Assembly: GCF_000337915.1 (NCBI RefSeq)
Contig: NZ_AOJE01000066.1
Coordinates: 1-52,333, forward strand
DNA: 52,333 nucleotides
From: Halorubrum saccharovorum DSM 1137
GTDB taxonomy: Archaea; Halobacteriota; Halobacteria; Halobacteriales; Haloferacaceae
Direction: 5' to 3'
This document shows positions 27,690 to 51,971 of the stretch, piece after piece (position 1 is the stretch's first letter; every line of letters starts with the position of its first letter). Made by a program: the position numbers and the translations under genes. The notes beneath the pieces were generated by a model that made no database searches, was not told where the DNA came from, and saw only the letters and a program-made list of their open reading frames with translations.

Positions 27690-28763
27690 CTACATCCCCT
27701 CTATGAAGTCACGGCGAATCTGCATTTTTTCGCGCTCAGTACGCTCGTCGTAGTGCTGATCGAGGATCTCCTTCGACACGTTCGATCGGTCAGTAACGAC
27801 CTCTTGGGGCGTCCCAGTTCGCAGGTGCTGCGTGATCGATCCACGACGGATGTCGTGTGGAGAGTGAGACGAGGGACAACCAGCCCGCTGACTGTGCTGT
27901 CTCCATTTACACGTCTCTGGCTCCCTGTCGTGAGGACATTCACCGATTTCGCACGGCTGAGTGAGACGGTAGATCGTTTCCCGGATCGACGGATCGCTGA
28001 GACGTCCGTACTGGCTAGTGATGAGAGGACGTCGACCGTGATCGTCAGTTGATTCTTGACGATTGTGGTCGATGTAGTCCTGAATCACGTCACAGTAATG
28101 TGGGCCCACCGCGATCGAACGCTCCGCAGCCTGTTTGTTTTTCAACGGAGTATCCGATTCCGGCTGATGCCGTAAGTCGAGACACTGCTGCTCCGGATCG
28201 AAATTCTCGACGTCGAACGTTCGCAGGCTCCCGAGTCGGATCCCAGTGTGCCAGAGAAGAGCCATGATGACATGGTCTCGGCTGGCGTACGAGAACCGCT
28301 CAAGATGATCCAGGATCTCTTCGGCTCGGTTGGCCTTCAGAAACACGTCACGGGCTTCTTCGCCCGAATCGATATCGGGAAGTTTGACGCGCTCTCTCAG
28401 CCCGGGCTCGACAGCCTCGATAGACGCACAGAATTCGAGGAAGACCCGGAACGTTTGAAGCTCACCTTGGAGAGTAACTGGCTGGATGTCTTTACTTCTC
28501 CAGGTGCGGTAGCGATGGAGATCTCTGCCAGTCAAGGCGTTCATCTCCTCGATTTCGTATTCGGTACAGAACTCAAGGAACCGTTCCAGCCGATAACCCT
28601 GGTTCTGATGTGACTTCTCAGAGAGGTCCGACTCTCGTTCAGCGAGGTACCACTCCACGGCCTCGGCAGGCGTCGTGGGTTCGAGGTTCTCGCTCATAGG
28701 ACCTCTTCTGTCCTGAACCTCGGAACCCTCAAAGGTACTTCGGCGTCCGTCAGCTTCACTCAT
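27690..28763 (-). CDS. Tyrosine-type site-specific integrase
   Basis: A tyrosine recombinase of 357 aa from the ATG at 28763. The more family-like start is Met23 (28697), where the sequence reads MSENLEPTTPAEAVEWYL. An N-terminal SAM-like core-binding domain (about 25-130) precedes the catalytic domain, with Arg in HTGIRLGSLR, the HxxR box in SPHDIRRGS and the nucleophile Tyr in LDQHYDERTE near the C-terminus. Several cysteines (CEIGECPHDREPETCKW) between them suggest a zinc-binding insert. The long start overlaps the upstream gene by 8 bases, suggesting coupling. This is presumably the integrase of the island; no tRNA or obvious att site is next to it. Confidence 0.9.
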   Translation of the reverse strand: MSEADGRRSTFEGSEVQDRRGPMSENLEPTTPAEAVEWYLAERESDLSEKSHQNQGYRLERFLEFCTEYEIEEMNALTGRDLHRYRTWRSKDIQPVTLQGELQTFRVFLEFCASIEAVEPGLRERVKLPDIDSGEEARDVFLKANRAEEILDHLERFSYASRDHVIMALLWHTGIRLGSLRTFDVENFDPEQQCLDLRHQPESDTPLKNKQAAERSIAVGPHYCDVIQDYIDHNRQESTDDHGRRPLITSQYGRLSDPSIRETIYRLTQPCEIGECPHDREPETCKWRQHSQRAGCPSSHSPHDIRRGSITQHLRTGTPQEVVTDRSNVSKEILDQHYDERTEREKMQIRRDFIEGM

Positions 28764-33950: not shown

Positions 33951-34544
33951 ATGGTCCGCATCGACGACAGCGATGACGTGACGAAGTGCTGGCTCTCCCC
34001 TGACGAACTGAATCGGCTGGAACGAACAGCTGGGGAGAACGGCTGGGAGCGTGAGGTGGCGGTCCAGCTGATGGGACGATGCGGGCTCAGGGCGTCAGAA
34101 GTGAGTTATCCGAACGATAGCAACCTCCGATACTCCGACGATGGCGACATCTGGCTCTTCGAGATCCAGGGGAAGAATACAAAAGGCGGGTCAAAGACGA
34201 CACGTGACGCATGGATGCCCGACGACGTTGCCGAGGATATCCACAAATACAGCCGTGAACGTGACCTCAGCCTATCCGACTCGTGGGTCGACGCCAGTAC
34301 CCCCTCTATTCGTCGATGGGTTAAGGAAGCGGCTCACGCCGTTTCAGAGAAAACTGACGACCCACGCTGGCAGTCAGTCTCGTCGCATGATCTCCGTCGG
34401 TCTTGGGCGACGTATCACCTCGTCGAGCGACAGGTCGATGTCCGGACTATGATGAGCGTCGGTGGATGGTCTGACTATTCTGCTATCGAGCCCTACCTTG
34501 CAGAGCCGACCGAGGCGCGTATCGGAGAGGCGATGCGGACATAG
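33951..34544 (+). CDS. Short tyrosine recombinase (catalytic domain only)
   Basis: A 197-aa XerC/D-like protein consisting almost entirely of the catalytic domain. Catalytic residues are complete: Arg47 (GRCGLRASEV), Lys75 or Lys78 (QGKNTKGGS), His146-Asp-Leu-Arg149 (SSHDLRRSW), the Trp173 position in VGGWSDYS, and Tyr182 in IEPYLAE. The N-terminal core-binding domain is missing or reduced to 15 residues, as in several haloarchaeal mini-recombinases. It is followed by the MNT-HEPN pair 88 bases on and preceded by a conspicuous inverted repeat. It may resolve or invert element DNA. Confidence 0.88.
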   Translation: MVRIDDSDDVTKCWLSPDELNRLERTAGENGWEREVAVQLMGRCGLRASEVSYPNDSNLRYSDDGDIWLFEIQGKNTKGGSKTTRDAWMPDDVAEDIHKYSRERDLSLSDSWVDASTPSIRRWVKEAAHAVSEKTDDPRWQSVSSHDLRRSWATYHLVERQVDVRTMMSVGGWSDYSAIEPYLAEPTEARIGEAMRT

Positions 34545-34616
34545 GGGCCGAACCAAGAAAGCCGAATCCAGCATTCCGTCGTTGGATCAGTTCACCGCCA
34601 GAGCTTTCAGACTCTT

Positions 34617-34627
34617 TCCTAATAGGA
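34617..34627. promoter_or_regulatory. Perfect palindrome TCCTAATAGGA upstream of the MNT gene
   Basis: The 11-base palindrome ends five bases before the ATG at 34633, and its half CCTAAT recurs as cctaatggg just inside the gene. The position suits an operator bound by the HTH of the MNT antitoxin for autoregulation. This is inference from position only. Confidence 0.5.
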
Positions 34628-34632
34628 ATCAT

Positions 34633-35298
34633 ATGCCTAATGGGAAAGAATCTATCTCGATCGCGTTGCAATACCCGTTTCCGGAGGATCGAGTATTCCG
34701 ATACCAAGCTATGCAGGACGTTCTTGACGTTCTCATCGATCAACCGTATGCGACGTACTCGATGAGCGAGCTTGCGAATCTCACAGGGGCAAATCAAGGG
34801 ACGATCTCAAAGGCGGTCAGGCTGCTTTCCGAGCTCGATGTCATTGAAACAGCACAGGACGGACGAACCCAGCAAGTCCGGATCAATCGTGACCGGCTCA
34901 CGAAATCGGACCCGATTCTCTCGATCCCACAGGACGAGTTTCACCAACCAGTCCGGGCATTTCTGCAACAACTCCAAGATGAGTTGGACGAGTTAGTCGG
35001 GGTCGTCCTGTTCGGAAGCGTCGCACGGGGAGAGGCAGACAGGACCAGCGACATCGACCTCTTGGTGATTGTCGACGAGGATAGAACCGCAGCTCGCCGG
35101 ACTGTTCAGTCGGTCGTTAGTGATTTCGAAGACCAACGGTTCGAGGGGAACCGGTACACGTACCAGCCGCTCGTCGAATCGACGAACAGCGTCCAAAGAA
35201 TTGGTGACCAGCTTCGTCCCCAGTTCGACGACGGGATTACGCTGGTCGGCTCTGATCAACTCTCCGAGCTCCGGACCGAGGTGTACGCCGATGAATGA
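34633..35298 (+). CDS. MNT nucleotidyltransferase antitoxin with N-terminal winged helix
   Basis: A 221-aa protein starting MPNGKESISIALQYPFPED. Residues about 22-90 form a winged helix (SMSELANLTGANQGTISKAVRLLSELDVIE). Residues about 115-215 are a minimal nucleotidyltransferase with the complete signature G128-S129-x10-D140-x-D142 (LFGSVARGEADRTSDIDLLVIV). In MNT-HEPN toxin-antitoxin systems this enzyme adds AMP units to a tyrosine of the HEPN toxin and so blocks it. The gene overlaps the HEPN gene by 8 bases. The HTH fusion suggests the antitoxin also represses its own operon. It likely stabilises the island or acts in defence. Confidence 0.9.
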   Translation: MPNGKESISIALQYPFPEDRVFRYQAMQDVLDVLIDQPYATYSMSELANLTGANQGTISKAVRLLSELDVIETAQDGRTQQVRINRDRLTKSDPILSIPQDEFHQPVRAFLQQLQDELDELVGVVLFGSVARGEADRTSDIDLLVIVDEDRTAARRTVQSVVSDFEDQRFEGNRYTYQPLVESTNSVQRIGDQLRPQFDDGITLVGSDQLSELRTEVYADE

Positions 35299-35779
35299 CG
35301 ATATCCGAGACCAATTGACGGAGGCCGAGCGAACCTTCGAGGGCAGCCCTGGAACGATTGAGGAGGGATTGGATGTCGACGACGCAGAGTTAGTCCAACT
35401 TCGCCGTGCCTGCCGGCTGTTGGAGGTCGGTTCGAACCTCCTCAACCAAGGGTACTACACGGTCGTAATCGAGTCGGCGTTCGTTGCCATCGAGCGCACT
35501 ATCCAGTTCCGGTTGATCCACGACGGGGCAATGTCCGCAGCGGAGGTCATCAGCAGCCACCGACGACTCTACCAACGTGGTGCCGAGATTGGCCTCTACG
35601 ACGACGCGTTTGGGGAGGACCTTGCCGAGCTGTGGAACCGGAACCGAACGAAGACCTACTACAGGCTTGGCATCGCGACGAGGGAGCAGGCCGAGGCAAT
35701 GTACCGACTCGCCGACGACATCCACCGGCACCTCGTCGATATGACTCGGGTGTCACACGAGTGTCTCTGTCGGGGGTGA
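35291..35779 (+). CDS. HEPN-domain protein with altered catalytic histidine
   Basis: A 162-aa helical protein overlapping the MNT gene by 8 bases, hence the toxin partner. The HEPN bundle is visible in residues 33-155 (LRRACRLLEVGSNLLNQGYYTVVIESAFVAIERTIQF is the first part). The family's RNase motif is R-x4-H-x-Y. Here residues 117-124 read RNRTKTYY, so Arg117 and Tyr124 are kept but Thr122 replaces the catalytic His. Tyr124 corresponds to the residue AMPylated by MNT. The toxin might be weakened, rely on another residue, or belong to a haloarchaeal subgroup with this change. Confidence 0.85.
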   Translation: MNDDIRDQLTEAERTFEGSPGTIEEGLDVDDAELVQLRRACRLLEVGSNLLNQGYYTVVIESAFVAIERTIQFRLIHDGAMSAAEVISSHRRLYQRGAEIGLYDDAFGEDLAELWNRNRTKTYYRLGIATREQAEAMYRLADDIHRHLVDMTRVSHECLCRG

Positions 35780-37065: not shown

Positions 37066-37196
37066 CTATGAGCGAATCCTAAGCTAACCATGGTACATGA
37101 TGGCCTCAAGTTGGTGTCGGCATATGTGTTGGTGATTTTAAGAAATCGTTTGCGTCACTCCTGCAATGGGGAGTATTCTATTCAGACATACAACTA

Positions 37197-37207
37197 GGAT
37201 ATATAAG
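37197..37207 (+). promoter_or_regulatory. TATA element of drmE
   Basis: GGATATATAAG ends 33 bases before the ATG at 37241, the arrangement of haloarchaeal promoters with no or short leaders. It lies inside the frame that would start at 37166, which argues for the 37241 start. Confidence 0.6.
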
Positions 37208-37240
37208 CCCGCCCTCATTCATGATAGTAGAACGACTAAA

Positions 37241-39733
37241 ATGGGGAAGATTAGGTTAGTTTCTCTTGGCAGCGACGAATATCAGCTACCACCTACCGAA
37301 GAGACGCATATTCAGTTGGTTAGAAGTGCAATTCGGCAAGAGCGAGATCTCTGTATCATATCACCAACACTGAGGCAAGAATACCTTGACCGGCACACGC
37401 TGGCTGGCTTGTTTGAGATGATGGGAATGAACCGGCGTGCAGTGATGATTATGTCTCGAAATAGTGATATTCGAGACCGATATGAGCGCATGAAAGGTGC
37501 GTTCGAATATTCCACTGGTCGATGGCCACTTGCATCAGTGAAGTCCGACGGATCTCTAGCCCATCGCACACATCATTATGTAACTGAAGACGCCCCACCG
37601 GCAGTCATATATGCGAAATGGGCTACGCGACTCCCTAATTCAGAACATGCTGATGAGATTCAGGCTGTACTTTACGATGAAGGAGTAGGATTTGACGAAG
37701 AGCGGTTCGATGAGTTCCAAGAGTGGCGTGATAACGCAGAGATTCCTACAGTAGTCTACTATATTCGCGATCCTCTCGGACAGACATACAACCGTATTTC
37801 GGGAGAGGTGGATACGACATGGGCATGGAGTCTTCCTTCATTGAATATGGTAATTTCGGCAGAACAGAATGGGAGAACCGATGCGTCTAACGAGAATAAA
37901 GAAGTTGTGCCGAGCTGTACAAAAAGAGAGCGAGACCATCTCCAACGGAAGGTAGATGGACAATCGTATGAAGCACGAATCTGTCCACCAGGGACCGTCA
38001 CAGACCAATTTTCCAGGCTGTGGGAAGCTTATCAAGAATTCGATTCCACTGTCAACGAAGTTGGAACCAAACAGCTAAAATTCGCCAGATATTATCTTAA
38101 AGATACAATTTCTGCCTTTTCAAGGAACCTATCGAACCTTTCTCAGAGCAATATCTACCGAGCACAACACGCTATGGCAACTACTCTTTCTGGACGAGTA
38201 GGAGCTCTTCGTCAAATGAAATCAAACCTGTCTGGTGATTCACAGGCAGGAGGGACTGGCCTTCAGAATGCGATCTACGATCTTGAGGATCTCTGTGAGA
38301 TGCTAGATAATGATGAGAATTTGTCTTGGAAACGGGGTAGAGTACTCTCGGAGATGCTCAACGCGACAGACAATAATGAATCTCTAATTATTGTTGCGCC
38401 GGATGACCCAGAAGCAGAAGCTTTGCGTGCAGATATGTATATTAATAGGAAAGAATTTTGGCTTGAAGCTCAAGAGTCTGTAACTATTCAGACCCCCTCT
38501 GAATTAACCCGATCATACTCTGCAGACCGTCTTATGCTGTATGGACCGCCAAAATACTCCGATCGATGGCTCTTGCGTTCGCCACATGGAGGCGAAGTTA
38601 CTATTCTCACATATCCTCATGAGTTGGGTCTACTATTTTCACAGGCTTCCAATCTCAACTCTACAATGAATGAGGCTACCCCACACAAAGACGATATTTT
38701 GAACCCGCAAGAAGGGAGTATCTTAAAAGAGTTAGAAGAAGAACTGCCGAGCGCAGAACTCCCGCCAAGTGAGGGCAATTCTTCGCCGACAATCGCCTCT
38801 CCTGGCATTGATGGAATCAGGATCAATATTCCAGATGAAGATGAGACATCATCTGGTTCTTCGACGTTTAAGAATCACGAGACCAAGGACCCGAACAAGC
38901 GTGAAAGGTTGAGAGAACTGATCGAACAGAAGAATAACGTCTCTAACTCGTCTAATGGGCAATATCAGCCAACCCACTCTGGGTCCGATAATTCAAAACA
39001 GTCCACTTGGAGTCGGCGTGATATTGATGGTTGTATCGAACTTGTTGCTGGAGATGGTTACCGAATGGCTGATAAACCAGATACATCCGTTGAGGTTGTT
39101 AGAATGGACGCGAAAGTACGTACGTCTAAGTCACTTCGAGAAGTAAACGTCGGGGAATACGTCGTCAGTGTTCGAGATCGGATGGAAATCCGAACGCACG
39201 TTGAACGACAGCTCTATGATATGGGAGAAGCGAGTATCGTGGTCAAAGCCAACAAGTGGAAGGATCTGCTACAACGGGAGATCGACCTACGAGACCACAG
39301 CTTCGAGGATTTTGTAGAACAAATGAATAGCACAGAGATTACCCCTAAAAACAAATCTACCTACAGAGACTGGTATCATGGTGAGGTGACTATGCCGAAA
39401 TCAAAGGATTCCTTATATTATATCGCAGATGCATACGACCTAGATGAAATTAAGAACCAACTCGATGAATGCTGGAATGCGAATAGGACAATACGACGCG
39501 TCAAAAGCGAATTGATTGATAAGTGGCTCGACGAGGCTCAGGAAGAACTCCTCTCTGAAGATATGGAAGTAGAGGACCTACTTAGAAACGATCAGGGCCT
39601 AGACATCCGGGTATCTGACTTTGAGAAGTTCGACGAAGATAATGAACCACTCGTCCTGGCTCATAAGGTAACCTCAATTGAGTATGACGTTACTCGTTCG
39701 TACAGCTACCTTGGTAGATGGCGTTCGACGTAG
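37241..39733 (+). CDS. drmE: DISARM class 2 component DrmE
   Basis: An 830-aa protein starting MGKIRLVSLGSDEYQL; an in-frame ATG at 37166 would lie upstream of the TATA box. No catalytic motif is obvious. Residues 1-250 look like an alpha/beta domain, the middle (about 270-380) is helical, about 500-600 is a low-complexity acidic/Ser-rich linker, and the C-terminal 220 residues (from DGCIELVAGDGYRMADKP) form a separate domain. Assignment as DrmE rests on length (family near 800 aa) and on its place directly before drmA in the order known for class 2 DISARM. DrmE's biochemical role is not established. The gene is AT-rich, like the rest of the island. Confidence 0.75.
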   Translation: MGKIRLVSLGSDEYQLPPTEETHIQLVRSAIRQERDLCIISPTLRQEYLDRHTLAGLFEMMGMNRRAVMIMSRNSDIRDRYERMKGAFEYSTGRWPLASVKSDGSLAHRTHHYVTEDAPPAVIYAKWATRLPNSEHADEIQAVLYDEGVGFDEERFDEFQEWRDNAEIPTVVYYIRDPLGQTYNRISGEVDTTWAWSLPSLNMVISAEQNGRTDASNENKEVVPSCTKRERDHLQRKVDGQSYEARICPPGTVTDQFSRLWEAYQEFDSTVNEVGTKQLKFARYYLKDTISAFSRNLSNLSQSNIYRAQHAMATTLSGRVGALRQMKSNLSGDSQAGGTGLQNAIYDLEDLCEMLDNDENLSWKRGRVLSEMLNATDNNESLIIVAPDDPEAEALRADMYINRKEFWLEAQESVTIQTPSELTRSYSADRLMLYGPPKYSDRWLLRSPHGGEVTILTYPHELGLLFSQASNLNSTMNEATPHKDDILNPQEGSILKELEEELPSAELPPSEGNSSPTIASPGIDGIRINIPDEDETSSGSSTFKNHETKDPNKRERLRELIEQKNNVSNSSNGQYQPTHSGSDNSKQSTWSRRDIDGCIELVAGDGYRMADKPDTSVEVVRMDAKVRTSKSLREVNVGEYVVSVRDRMEIRTHVERQLYDMGEASIVVKANKWKDLLQREIDLRDHSFEDFVEQMNSTEITPKNKSTYRDWYHGEVTMPKSKDSLYYIADAYDLDEIKNQLDECWNANRTIRRVKSELIDKWLDEAQEELLSEDMEVEDLLRNDQGLDIRVSDFEKFDEDNEPLVLAHKVTSIEYDVTRSYSYLGRWRST

Positions 39734-39758
39734 TTTCATAAAAAAATTCTTGAACATA

Positions 39759-39767
39759 GTTTTATCA
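39759..39767 (+). promoter_or_regulatory. TATA-like element before drmA
   Basis: AGTTTTATC in the 62-base gap between drmE and drmA is centred about 32 bases before the drmA ATG. It may give drmA a promoter of its own besides read-through from drmE. Confidence 0.35.
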
Positions 39768-39795
39768 ACCGTCGAACTATTGGAATTGTCATATT

Positions 39796-42700
39796 ATGTC
39801 ACGGGACGCTCCTCCGTCGAATGCGCCACGATACACACGCCCGCCATCAGAAGCGTATGAGGAAGATAGTAATGTCGAATATATTCGACGACAATTAATC
39901 AACAACGTTCTGACGAACGATCTATCAGAGCGAATCACTGGACGTGGGAGCCAATACGAATCCCTGTATGGCAGCCGTCCCCAGAACCAGTTTTTTGCGG
40001 CTGCCTTACCCTCTCAGTATGAGTATCGCGAGGCCAAGGCGAACGAGGAGTCTTTTGAAAATGTAGCTAAAAAGGTTGCACCATTCAAAATTGGAGTTAC
40101 CTTCCGCCTCCCGCGCACAATTTCTGATGATGCAGAGATTTCGATTTTCCCTCGAGCATCTGCCTTCCAGCGCCGATTCCCGACATATGACGAACAGATG
40201 CGGGAATCCAACGACAACGAAACGGCATCGGTTCTAGACCAAGACCGAGAGACATCTCCTACCGATGCCGAAGATAGCGATAGTGACTCTAGCGTCATGG
40301 ACACAGATGAGGTCACAGATCTACTCCGTACCTACGAAAGATTAGACCCAGATTGGAGTGCCGTTACGGTAAGTGGGAGCGAAGTAAAGTCACTTATAGA
40401 GGATAGTGATTCAAGAGTATTCGAACTTGATCTGTCCAAACTCTACAAGGAAGCGTACGATGTAGATAGACGATTTCGGAAAAGAACTGAAGGAGTTGAT
40501 GAAAACGAAGCGTCACTGCTTGACCAGGAAACGCTTGCTTCCAAGCAGGCGTTCGAAAATCATCTCGCGGACTCATATGCCAGAGACGAAATCCCGCCTC
40601 TGTGGGATGCACATCTTGAGTTCGATGTGAAAGCGGACGAAGACGGTGACTACCTGTTAGTTACTGCCCGTCTAATCAACACCCATGGGTCAGACTACCA
40701 ATCTGAAGATGAGGAATATCAAGAGAGAAACGATCCAGGATATGAGGACTGGCGATCAACGTTCTTTGATGTCGAAGTCGCAGTCACTATTGAGGGCGAA
40801 CCTCTGAAAACATTCGATTCCAACGAGATTGAGGATAAATATCAATACGACGGTCGTATCTTCGCTGTGGGAGAGAACACGGCAACAGAGCCTGTACATC
40901 CCGTACACCTCGATTCTTCGGGCATACCTGATCGGTCACAATATTCTGAGAATCCAACACTGGATGACCCAGTTGGTGTCCGAACGGAATTGGTCCCGAC
41001 ATACGAGCAGTCACGATACCTGTCCCGGAATCCGGATGATATTGCAGCTCCAATGGATACCCTCGCAGGAATGAATGGGGATGCAGCACTGTTCAATTGC
41101 TTGGAAGACCTGGCTGACGGAATGGAGGCTGCTGTCTCCGACTATCGAGAAATCAAGTCGGAGATGACCCATAATAAATCACGGGAAGCAGAGAATGATT
41201 TCGATTCCTCGGTCGAGAGTTTCCAATCACACCGGGATCGGATGGTTACTGGAATAGAATGCCTCCGGCAAGATTCTCGAGCACTTGAATCGTTTAAGCG
41301 AATGAACGAATCATTCGTCAAGATGGGATTCGATAAGTGGCGAACCTTCCAGATCGTATTCATCCTGATGACGATCCCGGATATGCTGAAGCAGGCAGAT
41401 CAGGTTGGAGATGATATAGAGATCGATTGGGAGGAAGATCAGTTCACAGAGCAATTAGATGTCGCTGATGTCATCTATTTCCCGACAGGAGGTGGGAAAA
41501 CTGAGGCCTATTTGGGGTTAGTAACGTTCACAGCATTCCACGATCGGTTTAGAGGGAAAACGCACGGAATGACTGCCTTCGCAAAATTTCCGCTTCGGTT
41601 CTTGAGTCTGCAGCAACTCCAAAGAATTGCGAATGTCCTTGCAATGGCCGAAGAGATTAGGCGTAGAGATGACATCGGCGGGGAATCTTTCTCGGTCGGA
41701 TACCTCGTTGGATCCGATAACACGCCGAACAAACTCTCTAGTGGTAAATATACAAATTACATCCGGGACGCCCAGAACGATGAGGAGTTCAAAAGCTCAG
41801 TAAAGTATGTTAACAATTGTCCATTCTGTGGTGAGGATAGTGTTATCATCGATGGCGATCTCGAGCAAGGTCGAATTCTACACAAGTGCGAGAATCCGGA
41901 GTGTGATGAAGTACAGAGGAATGGTGGCGATCCCGCGCCACTCCCAGTCTACGTTACAGACCAAGAGATTTATCGATATACGCCGACTTTCGTAGTTGCT
42001 ACAATCGATAAAATCTCAATTATTGGAATGCAGCGACGGATGCGTACTGCTCTCTTTGGGCGGACTCTTCTTCGGTGTGATAAACACGGATTCTCTGGAG
42101 AGGACCGTTGCATTGCTAATACGCGGATACTGAATGAGGGCGGGGAATGTGGTCCCGATGACTGGGTAGAAATCGATCCGGTGGATCCACCTAGTCTGTT
42201 AATCCAAGACGAGCTACACTTACTTCGTGAAGAATTCGGCTCGTTTGACTCTCACTATGAGACTCTGATCCAGCAGCTTAATGCTGTCTTCACAGATGGG
42301 AATTGGAATACAAAAGTAGTCGCTGCAACGGCGACGATTAAAGGGGCTGAACAGCAGGTTGAAGCACTATATATGAAAGAAACAAATATTTTCCCATCAC
42401 AGAGCCCTCGGCTCAAGCAGTCTTTTTACGCATACGCTCATCCCACGCGAATCCAGAGACGAATGATCGGGGCGCTTCCGCGCTCACTATCCCGAACGTA
42501 CGCAATTGAGAAAGTTCACGAGGAATACGCTCGCGCGATCCAAGAGTACCGTGCAGAACCTGCAGATCTCCGTGACGAAATGGCAGATGTGGCAGATACC
42601 TACTCTGTTGATCAAGCCAACCTCCCTACGGATGTTGATAAGTACGGACCAGAACTGAATAAGATATTAAACGATTACGAGACTCAGGTTTCCTACCATT

Positions 42701-43623
42701 ATTCTCGTGACAATACAGATCTAATAAAAAGGGTTCTACGGACGATGATAAATGTCCACCTCTCTGACGATGGAGATCCATATTATCCACTAAATGGTCA
42801 GTTGATGACTGGGCAAACAGCTCTTGAAGACGTGAGTTCTGTTCTTGATGTACTCGAGAATTTGGACAAACTGGACGACCCGGCTGAGGCCGTGCATATG
42901 TTAATCGCCACGTCTATGATCAGCCACGGGGTTGACGTCGACGCACTGGGATTCATCGGCTTCTTCGGATTACCACGAAACACGGCTGAGTATATTCAGT
43001 CATACTCTCGTGTGGGACGCAAATGGCCTGGATCTGTGTTCTTATTGTTTGATCCGATGCGAACCAGAGATCGGTCACACTACAAGCACTTCCAGTACCA
43101 CCAGGAGTACCAGGACCTCCTCGTAGAAGCTACACCACTGGAACGATGGGCAGAATATGGCATCAAATGCACAATGCCTGGTGTAGTTTGTGCGCTTCTG
43201 CTCCAGTACTTCGATGAGAAACTAGCGGGCAAAACCAGTCAACGCCTCTACGATGGTGAAGGAGTTCAACAAGCAGTCACAAATGGCTATCTGGGTTATA
43301 ACGAAGTGCTGGCGATGGTTCGGAATGCGTATGGGCTCGATCACGAACTCGTCAACAGGAGCTCAAATACGGGTGTAGAGCTCTATCGACGTCAGATCGA
43401 GGCTCGTTTTGACGATATTTGGGATGCATTAATCGACCCACAGAACCTCATCGAGCGTCAGCGAGCAAATAACCCGAATTCTGATGAATCCAACTTCCTT
43501 AGTGCTGTCCTTGAACGAGGAGACCAACGAGCTCCAATGCTGAACCTGCGCGACATCGACGAACAGCTTACAATCGCCTTGGACAATGACACGTCCAGTA
43601 TAATTAATGGGTATCGTGGATGA
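39796..43623 (+). CDS. drmA: DISARM helicase DrmA
   Basis: A 1275-aa superfamily 2 helicase, the hallmark of DISARM. Walker A is PTGGGKT at 563-569 and the DExH box is DELH at 805-808 (LLIQDELHLLREEFGSFDSHYETL). Motifs V and VI are ATSMISHGVDVDALGFIGFF and YIQSYSRVGRK, with the arginine finger at about 1075. Between motifs I and II a zinc site CPFCG (675-679) and CENPEC is present. The first 500 residues are an N-terminal region that in characterised DrmA helps bind DNA. DrmA with DrmB forms the core DNA-recognition complex. Together with the downstream DrmB, DrmC and DrmMII the identification is secure. Confidence 0.93.
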   Translation: MSRDAPPSNAPRYTRPPSEAYEEDSNVEYIRRQLINNVLTNDLSERITGRGSQYESLYGSRPQNQFFAAALPSQYEYREAKANEESFENVAKKVAPFKIGVTFRLPRTISDDAEISIFPRASAFQRRFPTYDEQMRESNDNETASVLDQDRETSPTDAEDSDSDSSVMDTDEVTDLLRTYERLDPDWSAVTVSGSEVKSLIEDSDSRVFELDLSKLYKEAYDVDRRFRKRTEGVDENEASLLDQETLASKQAFENHLADSYARDEIPPLWDAHLEFDVKADEDGDYLLVTARLINTHGSDYQSEDEEYQERNDPGYEDWRSTFFDVEVAVTIEGEPLKTFDSNEIEDKYQYDGRIFAVGENTATEPVHPVHLDSSGIPDRSQYSENPTLDDPVGVRTELVPTYEQSRYLSRNPDDIAAPMDTLAGMNGDAALFNCLEDLADGMEAAVSDYREIKSEMTHNKSREAENDFDSSVESFQSHRDRMVTGIECLRQDSRALESFKRMNESFVKMGFDKWRTFQIVFILMTIPDMLKQADQVGDDIEIDWEEDQFTEQLDVADVIYFPTGGGKTEAYLGLVTFTAFHDRFRGKTHGMTAFAKFPLRFLSLQQLQRIANVLAMAEEIRRRDDIGGESFSVGYLVGSDNTPNKLSSGKYTNYIRDAQNDEEFKSSVKYVNNCPFCGEDSVIIDGDLEQGRILHKCENPECDEVQRNGGDPAPLPVYVTDQEIYRYTPTFVVATIDKISIIGMQRRMRTALFGRTLLRCDKHGFSGEDRCIANTRILNEGGECGPDDWVEIDPVDPPSLLIQDELHLLREEFGSFDSHYETLIQQLNAVFTDGNWNTKVVAATATIKGAEQQVEALYMKETNIFPSQSPRLKQSFYAYAHPTRIQRRMIGALPRSLSRTYAIEKVHEEYARAIQEYRAEPADLRDEMADVADTYSVDQANLPTDVDKYGPELNKILNDYETQVSYHYSRDNTDLIKRVLRTMINVHLSDDGDPYYPLNGQLMTGQTALEDVSSVLDVLENLDKLDDPAEAVHMLIATSMISHGVDVDALGFIGFFGLPRNTAEYIQSYSRVGRKWPGSVFLLFDPMRTRDRSHYKHFQYHQEYQDLLVEATPLERWAEYGIKCTMPGVVCALLLQYFDEKLAGKTSQRLYDGEGVQQAVTNGYLGYNEVLAMVRNAYGLDHELVNRSSNTGVELYRRQIEARFDDIWDALIDPQNLIERQRANNPNSDESNFLSAVLERGDQRAPMLNLRDIDEQLTIALDNDTSSIINGYRG

Positions 43624-43701
43624 ATCTTGTAAACTCACACACTAGCTTGGCGAGTTGTTCTAACAGAAGAACAGCAGTGCAATCCCCTAAAACTACGGAC
43701 A

Positions 43702-45666
43702 ATGACAGATAACGATTTGGAGATGGAGCGTGGTCGCGCACAGGCAATGCACTCATTCGGCGAAGCGAACGTCGTCGACATGGGTGACCTAGGAGTAACT
43801 GCTGAGGTTCGACCATGGCGGAACTCTTATGAAATAGACGACATCGACAAGGAACGAATAGTCGCTGAAATAAACAATCGGGCAGAGAGGCATCAGAACC
43901 GAACGACTGGTGATACTTGGGATGATCTTACATCAAGTGACATAGATATATATCAAGTCTATCGATCGATCGAAACACGGTTGTTTCCGACAATTTTCTA
44001 CTGTGAAGATTGTAAGAAGATACATAGTACGGCTCGTGAGTATCCACAACAGCTTCCAAGCGATGGTAAATGCGAGGTCTGTGACGGAAAGCTAACTCAG
44101 TTGTCTTTCGTCAACGTTTGTAGATGTGGACGACTTGAGGATCCAAGCCCCCCAAAGCCGTGCTCAAATCACGCATTCGAGGATTATCGGATACAAAAGA
44201 CTTCGAGTGGTCCTGCTTCATGGCGGTTCAGGTGTAATAAATGCGGAAATTCGATGGGAGGAATGTCCAAATCATGTGGAGTGTGCAACGAGATGGATGG
44301 TCCCTTACCCACAGCATCCTCAAGAATATACTATTCACAACGATTCGTGAGGGCAAACATCCCTCTTGTTGACATTGAACCAGAAGAAATGCCCACGTAT
44401 CAGCAGTGGGCTAGAGTCTTGGCTGCGGTATATCTCGGTTATCAAGATCCGGACGATATGACCATCGAAGAATTAGCAACTGAGGAAGGAAAATCAAGTC
44501 AATTTGAGGAGATGGTTGAGGATGGGGAAGATCCTGAGACAGTAAAACGGATTTTGGAAGGGATGGGAATTCCTCTCGAAGGACGTGGGCTTGCACTGGA
44601 GGATACAGAACATATTGTCCCCTTCGACGCACAAAAAGAATTCCACTCTGAGGAAGCAGACCGCAAACTTGCGTGGTCGAACACGTCTCATGCACTATTC
44701 ACGTTCATGAGAACCACAGATGGGTATGACGGCGACCCAGAGAAAATCAAGCAATTGGATTATCCGAATCCGACTGATCTCGAGATTTACACCTCAGATC
44801 CCGAGTTCCGATCTGACCACCCTCAGAGCAGTAGGTACAGGGACCAATTAAACAAGACGAACATCAGTCAAGCGTGGGTCGTGGACCAATTTCCCTTGCT
44901 CAACGTGCTCTACGGGTACAGTCGCGGCGATCCGGAACCAAGAAACACGGATCTAAAACGATTCACGCATCCTCGTGGAAAAAATACTGTCCCTGTTTTT
45001 GCAGACCGAGCACCATCTGAGGCGATCGTCCTCGAGATCGATCGAGCTGCGATCATTAACTGGCTGGTTGCCAACGACCTCCTTGATGAGTCTGCTCCAG
45101 AAGACAGCAGATACTCTGTTCCGGACACATCCGATGAACGGGCGCTAAAAGAATGGTTTTTGACCAATATTGCGACAACAGAACTGGAGAATCCGTTTGC
45201 AGACATTGAAGATGAGATCACCGAGGCGGTGTATACACTGTTACATTCGATGAGCCACTGTCTACTTGCACGAGCTGGCGAGCAGTGTGGACTCGCTACG
45301 GATACACTTGGAGAGCGCGTGTTCAGTAATATTCCTGCGATTGTGATCTATGCATCAACCACGGAATCATTCTCGATCGGCAGTATGTCGACGTTATTCA
45401 AAACTCGTCTTCACCCGTGGCTATCTCAGGCACGAGACCTCGCAGAAGATTGCCTCTTAGACCCGGCATGTTCGGAAGATACAGAGGGTGCCGCTTGCGA
45501 TGCCTGTATTCATATCTCAGAGACTTCTTGTGAATTTTTCAATCATTCATTAGACCGTAGATTGCTCGAAGGAAAAGATAAGATTACAGGATTTTGGGAA
45601 CCAGCAATTCAGAATAGCTCCGAAAGAACTAGCGACATGAATTCAATCGACGAAGAAACTGAGTAG
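43702..45666 (+). CDS. drmB: DISARM protein DrmB (DUF1998)
   Basis: A 654-aa protein with two cysteine clusters in the N-terminal third (YCEDCKKIH, CEVCDGK, CRCGRL; then RCNKCG, CGVCNEMDG). A C-terminal DUF1998 domain follows, with SMSHCLLARAGEQCG, YASTTESFSIGSMSTL and the late cysteines CLLDPACSEDTEGAACDAC. All these would bind zinc. DUF1998 proteins accompany DrmA-type helicases; in DISARM, DrmB binds DrmA. The gene follows drmA after 78 bases and precedes drmC by 35. Confidence 0.92.
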   Translation: MTDNDLEMERGRAQAMHSFGEANVVDMGDLGVTAEVRPWRNSYEIDDIDKERIVAEINNRAERHQNRTTGDTWDDLTSSDIDIYQVYRSIETRLFPTIFYCEDCKKIHSTAREYPQQLPSDGKCEVCDGKLTQLSFVNVCRCGRLEDPSPPKPCSNHAFEDYRIQKTSSGPASWRFRCNKCGNSMGGMSKSCGVCNEMDGPLPTASSRIYYSQRFVRANIPLVDIEPEEMPTYQQWARVLAAVYLGYQDPDDMTIEELATEEGKSSQFEEMVEDGEDPETVKRILEGMGIPLEGRGLALEDTEHIVPFDAQKEFHSEEADRKLAWSNTSHALFTFMRTTDGYDGDPEKIKQLDYPNPTDLEIYTSDPEFRSDHPQSSRYRDQLNKTNISQAWVVDQFPLLNVLYGYSRGDPEPRNTDLKRFTHPRGKNTVPVFADRAPSEAIVLEIDRAAIINWLVANDLLDESAPEDSRYSVPDTSDERALKEWFLTNIATTELENPFADIEDEITEAVYTLLHSMSHCLLARAGEQCGLATDTLGERVFSNIPAIVIYASTTESFSIGSMSTLFKTRLHPWLSQARDLAEDCLLDPACSEDTEGAACDACIHISETSCEFFNHSLDRRLLEGKDKITGFWEPAIQNSSERTSDMNSIDEETE

Positions 45667-45701
45667 GTCACTGGAAAACATACGATAATCAAGATCATCA
45701 T

Positions 45702-46712
45702 ATGAATCGACAAGCCCGGTTACTGGACGGATCTCCAATCTGTAGTGATTTCTCTATTGTGGATGTGATTCCAGATCCAAAGCGAATCGAATCGATACGT
45801 CTTGCACTTGCTTTATTGGGAAGTACTACTCCCATCGGTACGCAATCGACCACTAATACTGGTAATGTAGACATTCGTTATTTCGATGGACTACCATTTC
45901 CGATCCGATGCCGGACATACGCATTTAAACAGGATCACCTAAACAAGGTTCTTGCTGCGTTCGATGAACAAATCACTTCGAGAGAATTCAATGCCCTGGC
46001 GACAACGCTCTGCAACAACGGTGTAGCAATAGAAAAGACAACAAGTCGGGGATACGCAGACTACCGAATAGAAGTCACTGACCCACTCAGTGCTCTCCGG
46101 ATTCTTGACCAAATCATAATCGCAACATATAGTCAAGTGAGTAATTCTACTGGTTCCTCAAACAAGGAGAATTCTTCCGTAGAAATTGTTTCAACTCTTC
46201 CGAAAGAAGTCATCGCCTCTAAACAGGGAAAATTCAGCCCAATTCGCATATCCATTCGTAAGCAGCTCGCGAATGCGTCTGAAATTGTCCGAATTGCAAA
46301 TCCCTATTTTGATACTACAGACCATGTAATAGATGATTTAGCGGCTATTCCCCGTCGTGGCGTCCAGTTACGACTTATCACCCGCGAGGCTGAAGCCGAT
46401 GAGCCAAATCAGTCTACGCTAGACGCTCTAGAGAAGATTATTTCGCAATTATCGGACTCAAAAGGCGCAAGTGAGAATCTATCAATCCGTGATTTCTACG
46501 AGACAAACCGCTGGAATCGGCAGACAGGTGCAACTCACGCAAAGGCCATAGTTATTGACGATACAGTTGCGTATTTGGGGAGTGCTAATCTAACACGTCT
46601 TTCTTTGTCTGGTAATTTTGAATTGGGCGTTCTCCTCCGAGGAGAAGTCGTCCAGGAAGTGATCGATATATTTGATGCAATGTTCGATTACGCTACGCCG
46701 ATACGGTTCTAA
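45702..46712 (+). CDS. drmC: DISARM phospholipase D-like protein DrmC
   Basis: A 336-aa PLD-superfamily protein with one HKD motif: His279-x-Lys281-x4-Asp286 in THAKAIVIDDTVAYLGSANLTRLSLSGNFELG. One motif per chain implies that a dimer forms the active site, as in PLD-type nucleases. The N-terminal half (1-150) has no recognised motif, and the central EIVRIANPYFDTTDHVIDDLAAI leads into the PLD fold. In DISARM, DrmC is a candidate nuclease, although deleting it is reported to have little effect in the tested bacterium. It starts 35 bases after drmB. Confidence 0.9.
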   Translation: MNRQARLLDGSPICSDFSIVDVIPDPKRIESIRLALALLGSTTPIGTQSTTNTGNVDIRYFDGLPFPIRCRTYAFKQDHLNKVLAAFDEQITSREFNALATTLCNNGVAIEKTTSRGYADYRIEVTDPLSALRILDQIIIATYSQVSNSTGSSNKENSSVEIVSTLPKEVIASKQGKFSPIRISIRKQLANASEIVRIANPYFDTTDHVIDDLAAIPRRGVQLRLITREAEADEPNQSTLDALEKIISQLSDSKGASENLSIRDFYETNRWNRQTGATHAKAIVIDDTVAYLGSANLTRLSLSGNFELGVLLRGEVVQEVIDIFDAMFDYATPIRF

Positions 46713-47099
46713 TCAGAGATGATTCTCAAGTCGTAACACGAGTCTGTGGGAACACGGTTACAGAGGGGGATTTCAGAGATACTTGTTCTTTGTTAGTATA
46801 CTGGGAAACAAACAAGTAACACAGTCAAATAGATGACGCCAATATATCACATTTCCAAAGGACAGTTCAGCAAAACCACCGGATTCAGTCTTAGCAGCCC
46901 ATCGGGAATTACACGGATTCACGCGGTAGCGTTTAGACAGCAGAGATTAATATTTTGAAAGAAATATTAAATATAAATTTGAAACAGTACCTGTAAAATA
47001 ATTTGACACCTACTAAACTCATCCGAGCGAATGTGCGGAATATAGATAGACACCGTTCAACCGATAAATATAGACGTCGGGGATAGACAATATTAGACG
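46713..47099. promoter_or_regulatory. Spacer between drmC and drmMII, with inverted repeat and promoter
   Basis: No gene is seen in these 387 AT-rich bases. acttgtt (46781-46787) and aacaagt (46811-46817) are complementary and could fold as a terminator of the drmEABC transcript. Near the end, CGATAAATATAG (47062-47073) is centred about 30 bases before the drmMII ATG and fits a TATA element of a leaderless transcript. The methylase therefore probably has its own promoter. Confidence 0.5.
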
Positions 47100-48326
47100 A
47101 TGAGTAAGGGGAAGGTTGTTGACCTGTTCTGCGGTGCTGGCGGAGCATCGCTTGGGTTCGTTCAGGCAGGATATGAGGTAGTAGGTGCGGTTGATGCGTA
47201 CGAACGAGCGCTGAACACCTATCAGAAGAACCTCTGTCAACGATCACTCGACGAATACTCTGGCAGTGTTTCTTTCGATGCACCGCTTCAGGCGGACCTG
47301 AGCCGTGGATACGAAGATAACGATGTCGATAATGAACTTCCAACGGTCACCTTTGAGGATATTCGGGAGGAGTTCGACCTTGAGAAGGGAGATATAGACG
47401 TGATCTGTGGATGTCCTCCTTGCCAAAATTTTAGTGGCCTCCGAGATACAGACCCTTGGCCCAGCGGAAAGCCTAAGGATAACCTTCTGCGTGCCTACGT
47501 CGAATTTATTGAAGAAGAGATTCCCGATGTCGTCTTCTTCGAAAATGTTAGTAATATTATGAACGCTGGTGAGGAGGTTCCAACCGATTACATCGATTGG
47601 CTAGTACGGCGGATGGCTACCATGACTCGAAGTGAGGATACACTAGACAATGGCGGTTACGGGTACGAATTAGATGTTGTTAACGCTGCTAATTACGGCG
47701 TCCCACAAAAGCGGAACCGAACAATTGGAATGTTCGTCTATGGTGCCGAAGATTCTGACATCGAACTTCCAGAACCAACACACGCAGAAAGTCCGGGAGA
47801 CGACGAAGATCTCAGAAAATGGACGACAGTTCGGGACACAATTCGACGGGATGATCTAAAGGAAGATCTTGACCTTGGTCAAAAACAAGTTGGTATCGAT
47901 GGTTATCCGGATGATCCGGCGCATCGTGCTCACCGACACCAAGATAGTACCGTTAAAATGATCAGAGCAATCCGCCGTCATGGCGGGAGTTGGAGAGATC
48001 TCCGAGGGACTGAGGACGAGAATCTTATCAAAGAGTGTCATCAAAACCTAAATTCAGGTGCGTCTTCCGCTTACGGTATCATGAACTGGGACGAGCCGGC
48101 CCCAACTATGACCACTCGTTGCACTAATGTAAGTTCGGGGCGATTTACTCACCCGTCAGAAGATCGTGGTATCACCTTTCGGGAGGCAGCGCTACTGATG
48201 GATTTCCCGATTTGGTATGAGCTACCGAGTACAAACCAAGATGCTGAACGGGTCGTTGGGAATGCAGTTCCCCCAACTCTAGTAAAAAGGACAATTAATG
48301 GAACAGAGGGTGTTAAGATTAGATGA
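47100..48326 (+). CDS. drmMII: DISARM cytosine-5 DNA methyltransferase DrmMII
   Basis: A 408-aa C5-cytosine methyltransferase. Motif I is VVDLFCGAGGASLGF at residues 6-20 (S-adenosylmethionine site). Motif IV has the catalytic Cys108 in CGCPPCQNFSG, motif VI is FFENVSN with Glu148, and motif VIII is NYGVPQKRNRTIG. The C-terminal motifs IX-X end with ERVVGNAVPPTLV. The target-recognition region between VIII and IX (about 225-330) is specific to this enzyme. In class 2 DISARM this methylase protects host DNA (CCWGG in the studied bacterium); the site here is unknown. It lies after drmC, as in the known order. Confidence 0.92.
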   Translation: MSKGKVVDLFCGAGGASLGFVQAGYEVVGAVDAYERALNTYQKNLCQRSLDEYSGSVSFDAPLQADLSRGYEDNDVDNELPTVTFEDIREEFDLEKGDIDVICGCPPCQNFSGLRDTDPWPSGKPKDNLLRAYVEFIEEEIPDVVFFENVSNIMNAGEEVPTDYIDWLVRRMATMTRSEDTLDNGGYGYELDVVNAANYGVPQKRNRTIGMFVYGAEDSDIELPEPTHAESPGDDEDLRKWTTVRDTIRRDDLKEDLDLGQKQVGIDGYPDDPAHRAHRHQDSTVKMIRAIRRHGGSWRDLRGTEDENLIKECHQNLNSGASSAYGIMNWDEPAPTMTTRCTNVSSGRFTHPSEDRGITFREAALLMDFPIWYELPSTNQDAERVVGNAVPPTLVKRTINGTEGVKIR

Positions 48327-48973
48327 TGGCATTGTGGAGAGCTGCAGAGGCTTTGACCCAGCGATCTACTGATTTCCAGGAGCTATAGTGGGAGAACCGG
48401 CTATAGAAGAGCCTGGTTCGGTACTTGGGAAGGCCGAACCTGGCTTCGATCAAAGACCGTTCCCCCACGTTTCACGGCGTGAATCACAGAGATTGAGATC
48501 ATCAAGCGCCCAGTTGCACCACGGTCCGCGATCCACGAGAACAACTGGTTCACCGCGACACCGCTCGAGGACTTGTTTGACGAACAGCAAGGCATCGAGG
48601 TCAGATCGGCCGGGAGAGACCTCGATGTGGAGACGTTCGAAGTCACCCACATCGACTGCCGCCCAGACGTAGACCTCAGTCTCTTCGACTTTCAGCTTGG
48701 TCTCATCGATAGCGACAGTCGAATGGTAGTCGTGAACTGGGTCGAATAGGTGCGCCAAGCGGTGATACCACTGACGTACGGCCTCGTATGAGCGCCCGAC
48801 TGCTCGCTCATCGCGCCGATACGAGAGACCGGCGTGATACAAAAATACTGTTTCGACGCGGTGTTCCGTCGGCGTATCTTCACGCGAAAATACCTCTTGA
48901 TCGCGTGCTTTCGCAACGCGCGGTCGAGCAATTTCGAGTCACCAACTCGCCCTTGCTCGGCTGCACTCTTCAC
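48319..48973 (-). pseudogene. IS6-like insertion sequence transposase, frameshifted
   Basis: Minus strand, in three frames. The N-terminus from 48973 (KSAAEQGRVGDSKLLDRAL...KRYF) shifts at about 48880-48886, where an extra CG dinucleotide seems present, to the frame reading YHAGLSYRRDERAVGRS, AIDETKLKVEETEVYVWAAVD and VVLVDRGPWCNWALDDL. A second shift near 48455 leads to GERSLIEARFGL and a final ALHNAII stop at 48319. The DDE triad is recognisable (Asp in AIDET, Asp in LVDRG, Glu in LIEAR), of the IS6-like haloarchaeal type. Two frameshifts make it inactive. Its stop lies inside the last codons of drmMII on the other strand. No clear terminal repeats were identified. Confidence 0.82.
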
Positions 48974-49050
48974 GCTAAGGTTGACATCCCCCCGTTCTTA
49001 AGCTATTCTACTATCTAATTTTGTGTTTGGTAGCGCGTACTATATGATGA

Positions 49051-49060
49051 TTTTATATAT
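49051..49060 (+). promoter_or_regulatory. TATA element of the exonuclease-like gene
   Basis: TTTTATATAT lies 23-32 bases before the ATG at 49083, the exact spacing for a leaderless transcript. It rules against the earlier in-frame ATGs at 49023 and nearby, which lie upstream of or within the box. Confidence 0.6.
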
Positions 49061-49082
49061 GACGGTGATAGAAAATCGCCTG

Positions 49083-50063
49083 ATGGAACTCCCTCGCACT
49101 ACGAAGCCAGATATCGAAGACCGCGAAGCAATTGACATTGTTGGAAAAGTGATTCAGGGAAAATCGTTCGATAATGGTGATCAAAAATATCGGATGCTCG
49201 ATCCAGAGCAAAACGAAATCGAGCTGAAAATTTGGGCGAGTGAATCCGATAACTACGATATTGAGGCTGGTCACTGGTATTTGCTAGAGAGGGCAGAGGG
49301 TGACGAATACAAAGGCGATCGTAAATTGAGCTCAAATAGAGGGGAAATGGGCGTTACGCTCCTTGAGGAACCACCGGAGTTCGTCAAAGTACCAGAAGAT
49401 AATCATTCACCTCCGCTGGTTGAGGGGGGTGTGCTGGCTGTAGATATCGAGACCGTCTCAACAGTTCCAGAGCATCAGCTCGATCTAGATAACTCAGACC
49501 ATATCGAGTTACTGTGTATTGGGGTCGGGTTCACACCGCAGGCAGGTTCGCCGGGCCGTTCTCAAGTTCTGTTCAGAGAAGGTACTGGCGTTGATGACGA
49601 GCGAGAACTGCTCGAACAGTTCTGTGAATTCGTTAATTCTCGCTCTCCCGATCAACTTCGCTTGTTCAAGGGTGATTTTGATATACAACACCTCCAAGGC
49701 CGGGGAAAACGGGTTGATTCCGGTTCGGGTCTTGAAGATCGCGTTCGAGAAATATTTGAGACGTACGAGATCAATAACCTCGACCCACTTGGAACACTGG
49801 AGGAAAACTACAACACACCAAACACATATTGGGATATCTACAACCATTCGCTGAATCCTGCTGATTGGCGAAAAGATCATCCAAATTACGACGGGGACGT
49901 AGATGATCCGACGGTTAGTAACAAGGACATCCCATATTTCGGAGAGAGATTCTTGGAACTGTGCGACCAGAAGGAAATAACACGGGAGCACCGCACGCTC
50001 CGTGAGCTTATTCGCCATTACACCGTCGCAGATATTGATCCTCTTTTTGACGAAACCGAGTAG
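49083..50063 (+). CDS. OB-fold plus DEDD 3'-5' exonuclease-like protein
   Basis: A 326-aa protein beginning MELPRTTKPDIEDREAIDIVG. Residues about 14-95 resemble an RPA-type OB fold (DIVGKVIQGKSF...KYRMLDPEQNEIELKIWASES...GHWYLLERAEGDEY), which would bind single-stranded nucleic acid. Residues 115-322 resemble a DEDD exonuclease of the DnaQ/DNA polymerase B type: Asp121-x-Glu123 (VLAVDIETVS), FKGDFDIQHL with Asp200 as motif II, and HYTVADIDPL giving Tyr313-x3-Asp317 as motif III. All four acidic residues are present. It lies beyond DISARM, with the IS remnant in between, on the same strand. Function in defence or repair is inferred only. Confidence 0.72.
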   Translation: MELPRTTKPDIEDREAIDIVGKVIQGKSFDNGDQKYRMLDPEQNEIELKIWASESDNYDIEAGHWYLLERAEGDEYKGDRKLSSNRGEMGVTLLEEPPEFVKVPEDNHSPPLVEGGVLAVDIETVSTVPEHQLDLDNSDHIELLCIGVGFTPQAGSPGRSQVLFREGTGVDDERELLEQFCEFVNSRSPDQLRLFKGDFDIQHLQGRGKRVDSGSGLEDRVREIFETYEINNLDPLGTLEENYNTPNTYWDIYNHSLNPADWRKDHPNYDGDVDDPTVSNKDIPYFGERFLELCDQKEITREHRTLRELIRHYTVADIDPLFDETE

Positions 50064-50354: not shown

Positions 50355-51971
50355 CTAGCGGCGGGTGTTTACGCTCACCTTCCCCACCTGCCAAGATTCC
50401 GGACTGGTCCGCCACTTGACTCGTGCCTCAAGGAGGTCTAACGGGTCACGCCCTTCACTCCGCCACGCGTTGAGCGCTTCCTGGAGGACCTCGTCGACAC
50501 ACGGCAGCGATGAACTCTTCAGCTCCGAAAGGACCGTATCGATTCGAACGGTTGGATGTCCGTCGTCGCCCGTCTCGCTGATGCGCGCAGCGTACTTCTC
50601 ACACCACTTTTGCCAAGCGCTTGATGCGGCTTGTCGCGTTTCTAGGTTGAGAATCTTCGCTGCCCGGTCAGCGGCGTTCTCGATCTGATGCTCAGTGCTC
50701 TCAACGATGCCCGAAATCTCCTGCTCAAGCTTCTTGCTGGCGAACGACACCGATGCCCCATCGTTGCGAACGATCCCTTGGAGGCGCTCTAGCGCTCGAT
50801 AGACGGTACTGATTCCTCGTCCCGTCTGATCCGCCAAGGCCTGTGGATGTCGTTCCCCGCCATCGGAAACGAGCGACTCGAGCATCTCGACGTCGCTGTC
50901 ACAGAGGTCACGGAGGACAGTGACGAGGAGTGCCTCCTGATTGGTCTCCATTTCGGGCGTCGGGTCGGACTGACGCTGGATGCTCTTCTCCGCCTCGTTG
51001 ACACTGAAGTGCTTATCCGGAACGAACGTCGTCTGATCCGGCCTGACTGGGACCTCGCTCCAATCGAGGACGTTGATGAGCGTCTCATCGATCTCCCGCT
51101 TGAGTTCGTCTCGCTCGGACCAGTTGAACGAGTGGCCGGTGAGAGACTTCTTGAGAAGCACTCCGACCTTCGGGTGGTACAGCGGGTCCCCCTCGTCGTT
51201 GTTACGGACGTGCTTCGGGTGGTAGTGTTTGATCTGCTTCCCGAACCGGTGTCCGGAAATTAGTCGCTGCGCGTCCCGCTTGGGGAGAATAACGCGGTGA
51301 TTGTAGCCGACGATATCCTCGTTGTCGACACGATACTCGAACTTACTTCCCTTCTCGGTCGCACAGAGGTGCATTAGCCGCTGCATGACACCAGCGCGAC
51401 CCACGATCTTCTGGCTCCAGTTTCGATTGACCCGAACGTACCGCTCGTAGGTCGTGATGTTGCTCATCTCGTTGACGGAGCCACCGAAATACTCGGGGTT
51501 GACGTGAACGTCCGCCTCCTGAGCAACGTCCTGGACGAGTAGTGATAGCAGCCGTCGGAGTTCGTCCGGTTCGAGGTTTGAGCTCGAGAACCGAACGTTG
51601 ACTCCTTCGTCTTCGTTGATGTGGTCGAACGGTGTCGAAATCTCGTCGTCCGTCTCGTAGTGTCGCATGTCGACGAAACGCGGCTGAATCAGGAAGTTTG
51701 CCTTGCGTTCGCCGTTTCCATACGCACCGAGACGGAACTCGTAGAGCCGGTCACCACCGACGTCGTCCTCCGGGCGCGGGGCGATACCGCTCTGTTGGTA
51801 CGTGAGTGAGACGGTCCACGTCTCGCCATCGATTTCCGTTTCGATGTCGCCGGAGTAGCCGTCGAACCCGGCGGTGAGAACCTTCCCGATGATCCAGTAC
51901 GGACTCAGTCCGTGCTCGGTGAAGATGAGATTGCCCTCGCACTCGTGCGGGGCCGTCTCGACGTGCGTCAC
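50355..51971 (-). CDS. Haloarchaeal plasmid/provirus-type protein with central winged helix
   Basis: A 538-aa protein from a GTG at 51971 (reading THVETAPHECEGNLIF after the start). The N-terminal 330 residues are a large beta-rich domain that I associate with a haloarchaeal family (DUF7845-like, from memory) common in integrated elements and plasmids; its function is unknown. Residues about 340-420 carry a winged helix (ETNQEALLVTVLRDLCDSDVEML, then HPQALADQTGRGISTVYRALERLQG). The C-terminal part is helical (LEQEISGIVESTEHQIENA). A replication or control function for the element is plausible. It is GC-richer than the DISARM genes, so it may belong to a different layer of the island or to the flanking chromosome. 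Confidence 0.7.
   Translation of the reverse strand: MTHVETAPHECEGNLIFTEHGLSPYWIIGKVLTAGFDGYSGDIETEIDGETWTVSLTYQQSGIAPRPEDDVGGDRLYEFRLGAYGNGERKANFLIQPRFVDMRHYETDDEISTPFDHINEDEGVNVRFSSSNLEPDELRRLLSLLVQDVAQEADVHVNPEYFGGSVNEMSNITTYERYVRVNRNWSQKIVGRAGVMQRLMHLCATEKGSKFEYRVDNEDIVGYNHRVILPKRDAQRLISGHRFGKQIKHYHPKHVRNNDEGDPLYHPKVGVLLKKSLTGHSFNWSERDELKREIDETLINVLDWSEVPVRPDQTTFVPDKHFSVNEAEKSIQRQSDPTPEMETNQEALLVTVLRDLCDSDVEMLESLVSDGGERHPQALADQTGRGISTVYRALERLQGIVRNDGASVSFASKKLEQEISGIVESTEHQIENAADRAAKILNLETRQAASSAWQKWCEKYAARISETGDDGHPTVRIDTVLSELKSSSLPCVDEVLQEALNAWRSEGRDPLDLLEARVKWRTSPESWQVGKVSVNTRR

Follow-up and report, generated by a model that had tools for sequence, protein, structure and literature searches.

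A haloarchaeal class 2 DISARM locus with a DrmE that resembles an inactive helicase and a methylase of discordant phylogeny

The window analysed here is contig NZ_AOJE01000066.1 of Halorubrum saccharovorum DSM 1137 in its entirety (52,333 nucleotides, from a genome of 3.42 Mb). Between positions 37241 and 48326 it carries five genes, drmE, drmA, drmB, drmC and drmMII, all on the plus strand and all with open, full-length reading frames, separated in that order by gaps of 62, 78, 35 and 387 b (Table 1). A preliminary description had seen in this block a complete class 2 DISARM system in a haloarchaeal genomic island, its five genes in canonical order and free of frameshifts, in low-GC DNA with recombinases nearby, and on each of these points the picture was borne out: DrmE, DrmA, DrmB and DrmC are all matched by PADLOC profiles, and the GC content of the block is 45–48% against about 67–72% over the first 25 kb of the window. 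Similarity to the genome of a close relative (G315) ends at 26811, close to the drop in GC. Two tyrosine-recombinase genes lie upstream of the block, the fuller of them encoding a 357 aa integrase close to the GC boundary (27690-28763) and the other (33951-34544) a catalytic domain alone that is possibly truncated. No att-type direct repeat of at least 22 b was found across 26.5-52.3 kb, and the right boundary of the island is out of view because the contig stops at 52333.

Table 1. Features of the DISARM block, with positions in the window.
Feature	Position	Strand	Description	Basis
TATA-like element, candidate drmE promoter	37192..37208	+	GGATATATAAG, about 41 b before ATG 37241	
drmE	37241..39733	+	830 aa	PADLOC DrmE, NCBIfam DrmE_fam, AlphaFold2 models and fold searches
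drmA	39796..43623	+	1275 aa SF2 helicase, DISARM core	PADLOC DrmA, 7s9v_A match, motifs
drmB	43702..45666	+	654 aa, DUF1998-type zinc-cluster protein	PADLOC DrmB, 7s9v_B, cysteines
drmC	45702..46712	+	336 aa, predicted PLD-family nuclease	PADLOC DrmC, Pfam PLDc_2
drmMII	47100..48326	+	408 aa C5 cytosine DNA methylase	Pfam DNA_methylase, PADLOC MTase_II

In class 2 DISARM the genes run drmE, drmA, drmB, drmC and a C5 methylase, and the class is said to have been described from Bacillus paralicheniformis by Ofir et al. in 2018. The Halorubrum locus resembles the Bacillus system in having drmE, drmA, drmB, drmC and a C5 methylase gene in this order, and the first four are matched by PADLOC over their whole length or the greater part of it: DrmE by PDLC02636 (331.8 bits, E 2e-99, residues 40-853, nearly full length), DrmA (1013.7 bits), DrmB by PDLC02582 (444.3 bits, E 2e-133) and DrmC (167.9 bits, with a further 75.9 bits for Pfam PLDc_2). 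A mismatch of the DrmE or the DrmB profile had been named beforehand as grounds for giving up the assignment; both matched, and DrmE also exceeds the NCBIfam DrmE_fam cut-off (94.5 versus 80). The locus differs from the Bacillus system in that its DrmA and DrmB fall below their NCBIfam cut-offs (422 versus 950 and 115 versus 240, respectively), which we read as the mark of a divergent haloarchaeal branch that the PADLOC models cover and the NCBIfam equivalogs do not. A DrmA SF2 helicase whose ATPase motifs are intact, a DrmB with a DUF1998-type cysteine cluster, a DrmC of the PLD nuclease family and, for class 2, a DrmE are all present, and no unassigned ORF of the size of the class 1 protein DrmD occurs among those listed from 22 to 52 kb. 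The locus is a haloarchaeal class 2 DISARM, an ordinary addition to an already known type of system, and its drmA is the sole DrmA match in its own genome.

The motifs that had been picked out at the outset, PTGGGKT, DELH and SYSRVGR in DrmA and a single HKD motif in DrmC (HAKAIVIDD), are intact. DrmA aligns with the solved DrmA of Serratia (7s9v_A, E 1.3e-68), and its Walker A, DELH, SAT and motif VI residues, together with R610 and K739, are kept across 13 homologues, as is a C-terminal LRD(I/V)D motif. When the C-terminal 157-aa fragment was compared with the region of Serratia R1294/V1296 there was no direct match, and from its spacing alone the LRD(I/V)D motif would correspond to these residues; an acidic stretch of variable length at about 137-175 may sit roughly at the position of the Serratia trigger loop. 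DrmB matches the solved DrmB (7s9v_B, E 5e-10; profile E 4e-25) and has paired cysteines, with invariant ones at positions 101, 104, 124, 127, 154, 178, 181, 584, 590, 599, 602 and 610. It had been called a DUF1998 protein with zinc clusters, and although Pfam did not find DUF1998 at E 0.01, the DrmB profiles and the alignment to 7s9v_B speak for that identity. Serratia DrmAB (PDB 7s9v/7s9w, class 1) resembles the window proteins, by sequence, in the folds of DrmA and DrmB and in the helicase motifs, whereas the Halorubrum locus is unlike the Serratia system in having DrmE, and neither DrmD nor an adenine methylase was seen in the locus.

The longest drmE frame opens at 37166 and contains a second ATG at 37241, the start given in the preliminary description. 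We also prefer the second ATG, because a TATA-like element lies between the two, at -41 relative to 37241, and because the homologue in locus L045 has an internal Met that matches it. Within the block, such an element at -45..-24 precedes only 6 of 244 ATGs.

DrmE was modelled with AlphaFold2 on nine homologues, and the full-length model reaches a pLDDT of 71 (moderate confidence), with most of the core at 75-90. Residues of about 26-561 were placed on SF2 helicases by both Foldseek (E 3.7e-7 for the core) and VIA, the latter with 814 chains at Z of at least 8 and a best Z of 14.1, the top structures being DDX39A (302 aligned, rmsd 4.6) and RIG-I (412 aligned, rmsd 7.7). The two RecA-like domains of the SF2 fold are present in the predicted model, but the Walker A motif and the DExH/D Walker B motif of an active SF2 helicase are not: the window DrmE has no GKT/S and no DE.H/D, the site reading SPTLRQEYL and YDEGV, and a P-loop is absent from the expected position in 10 of 10 haloarchaeal DrmEs. 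The C-terminal 239 residues are modelled with a pLDDT of 89.6. About 65-80 of them resemble a Hint/intein fold (Z up to 9.1), with an HTH-like insert (Z 6.8); Foldseek alone returned no match for this domain at E 0.001, so the Hint/HTH reading is the weaker one. Overall, DrmE looks like a C-terminal domain attached to a two-RecA SF2 helicase core with no ATP site, and is probably not an enzyme. With an HTH-like part and a helicase fold that lacks an ATP site, it could act as a DNA-binding scaffold or sensor alongside DrmA. Since the proteins upstream of drmA in Rubrobacter and Allocoleopsis match no DrmE profile, the dead-helicase reading is limited to haloarchaea; a search of viral contigs found no DrmE. 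The dead-helicase reading offers a first structural hypothesis for DrmE, the role of which was left to future study (PMC9142583).

The E-A-B-C order is also found in Halobacterium GSL-19, Halobaculum and further haloarchaea, and the class 2 relatives in Halobacterium, Halorhabdus and Halobaculum are plasmid-borne. The core closest to that of the window is the one on plasmid pGSL19_284 of Halobacterium sp. GSL-19 (L121), jointly with the GSL-19-type locus L044, the DrmA of which is 57% identical to ours; the GSL-19 system differs in its own methylase, which lies on the opposite strand and is distant (43% identical for the L044 copy). The plasmid pHTIA of Halorhabdus tiamatea (L123), on the other hand, has a same-strand methylase directly after drmC that is 60% identical to that of the window, but two extra genes stand between its drmE and drmA and its core is just 29-49% identical. 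DrmE is carried by plasmids of Halobacterium (10 records), Halobaculum magnesiiphilum, Haloplanus sp. GX21, Halorhabdus tiamatea and Halomicrobium urmianum, and several of these related proteins have already been named as such by NCBI; no plasmid DNA near-identical to the block was found. A DrmA-family match (E 0.001) occurs in 57 of 293 sampled genomes of the order, many of them weak and partial, and DrmE in 22 of 391 genomes of the class, some weak.

The methylase has a separate story. All of its C5 motifs are intact, including PCQ, ENV, QKRNR and GNAVPP, it scores 162 bits against Pfam DNA_methylase, and it is the only C5 (PF00145) gene found in the genome, such that any 5-methylcytosine motif found there would be its mark. 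Its nearest relatives lie outside DISARM: one is 79% identical and comes from a genome with no DrmA match (G225), and three others (G261, 66%; G167, 65%; the Halorhabdus chromosome G119:C2, 62%) adjoin GHKL ATPases that PADLOC names REase_II, GHKL-type restriction genes of such kind having been described (PMC2292703). In the methylase tree the window sequence groups with that of G225 (100/99) and then with the GHKL-linked methylases (98/95); this group excludes the Halorhabdus DISARM methylase (100/97), and that of Halobacterium is distant. The DrmA tree unites the window with Halobacterium and Halobaculum (100/100) and separates it from Halorhabdus (100/100). This strongly supported conflict indicates that methylase and core have different histories, and in our reading of the two trees the methylase has been exchanged, as a replaceable module probably acquired from restriction-modification systems. 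The name drmMII is best taken as positional, since a generic type II profile scores better (PADLOC MTase_II 235.9 versus DrmMII 133.3) and the phylogeny is unlike that of the core; the C5 methylase with intact PCQ and ENV that the preliminary description had reported is there, but its identity as DrmMII is doubtful.

The methylase may not serve the DISARM system. It may simply be an unrelated solitary or type II enzyme, the leftover of a restriction-modification system that has lost its nuclease, beside a DrmEABC core that works without 5-methylcytosine or with another mark. We consider this unlikely, though several features are in its favour: the grouping with non-DISARM and GHKL-restriction-linked methylases, three of them with REase_II alongside; the 387 b gap after drmC, with an AT-rich stretch upstream of the methylase itself; the different, divergently placed methylase of the closest core; and an IS240-type transposase fragment on the opposite strand directly 3' of the gene (48450-48842). 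Against it stand the 60% identical methylases of Halorhabdus tiamatea and of genome G384, which occupy the same place and orientation after drmC, the fact that Halobacterium too retains a methylase beside its core, and the failure to find a second C5 methylase in the genome.

Much of what can be proposed about mechanism comes from Serratia, where an autoinhibited DrmAB loads on 5'-overhang ssDNA, unmethylated DNA raises its ATPase activity and 5-methylcytosine lowers it, and mutants of DrmA residues that contact DNA or nucleotide give reduced protection (PMC9142583). By homology, DrmA and DrmB would work as a complex powered by ATP, loading onto incoming DNA that is unmethylated and has single-stranded 5' ends, and blocking or unwinding it. 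DrmC, a PLD-type nuclease, would have an accessory part, the C5 methylase would label host DNA as self, and DrmE would be the DNA-binding scaffold or sensor that partners DrmA. The best explanation of the whole is that a mobile Halorubrum island bears an intact antiviral system, a class 2 DISARM, working in this way, and we put the probability of this explanation at a little over 90%. The methylation site in Bacillus DISARM is CCWGG (PMC5957327), and a replaceable methylase module is in keeping with a core repressed by methylation generally and not bound to one site. A fuller version, in which a working DrmA is paired with DrmE, a dead SF2 helicase whose C-terminal domain binds DNA, as sensor or loading scaffold, the methylase is an exchangeable cassette that comes from restriction-modification systems and the core reads any 5-methylcytosine, is put forward tentatively, at somewhat less than even odds. 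The methylase swap lends itself as a natural experiment on whether the DISARM core is blind to the methylation site.

That the block is a decaying, inactive copy, its genes divergent and its defence lost behind intact frames, is very improbable: the branch of the window DrmA is indeed long (0.66 changes per column), the curated NCBIfam cut-offs are missed, and decay is seen in related loci, for instance in Halobacterium salinarum NRC-1, where drmE lies beside IS elements, but the frames here are full length, the family-invariant catalytic residues are retained and a promoter-like element precedes drmE.

Other haloarchaeal loci show a range of arrangements. On pNRC200 of NRC-1 (L122:9941-15370), drmE is alone, drmA-B-C are not annotated and ISH32 and ISH8B transposases occupy the position that drmA-B-C have in GSL-19, a natural remnant. 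Halorubrum aquaticum (G021:C15) has tandem full-length drmE genes ahead of drmABC (54811-57270 and 59929-62364), separated by an 810 aa ORF. In loci L036-L042 a protein of 920-1400 aa replaces drmE ahead of drmABC; it matched no PADLOC model, and in three genomes it resembles the DrmE profile weakly and locally. A conserved pair of genes of about 335 and 217-254 aa (L031:15669-17433; L043:11740-13400), with no Pfam or PADLOC match, follows drmC in some loci and lies between drmE and drmA in Halorhabdus; the second of the pair may be PIN-like, judged by eye. Many haloarchaeal drm(E)ABC loci (L031-L035, L079, L080, L130-L140) adjoin triads of PDC-M33A/B/C, a PADLOC candidate module in which M33A carries a GHKL-like 'FVREVLQNANDQ' motif; M33A was found in 21 genomes, 12 of which have DrmA matched on the same contig. 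A C5 methylase lies beyond the triads in these loci, and the notion of a methylase-less DISARM (drmEABC with PDC-M33) was dropped because almost all of the loci followed outward had one past the M33 genes.

The flanks of the block in the window hold further genes. Upstream, 34462-35779 is likely an MNT/HEPN-type pair, the first gene encoding a nucleotidyltransferase with an HTH (PADLOC PDC-M05A, Pfam NTP_transf_2) and the second a helical protein with RNRTKTYY. Downstream, a 346 aa protein (49023-50063) was matched by neither PADLOC nor PHROG and gave a weak, below cut-off match to the exonuclease domain of B-family polymerases (E 0.002). It is followed at 50355-51971 by a DUF7845 protein, a relative of the 'transcriptional regulator' that Halorubrum pleomorphic viruses encode as ORF9 (27-29% identity over nearly the full length), which suggests that a virus-derived element adjoins the DISARM locus.
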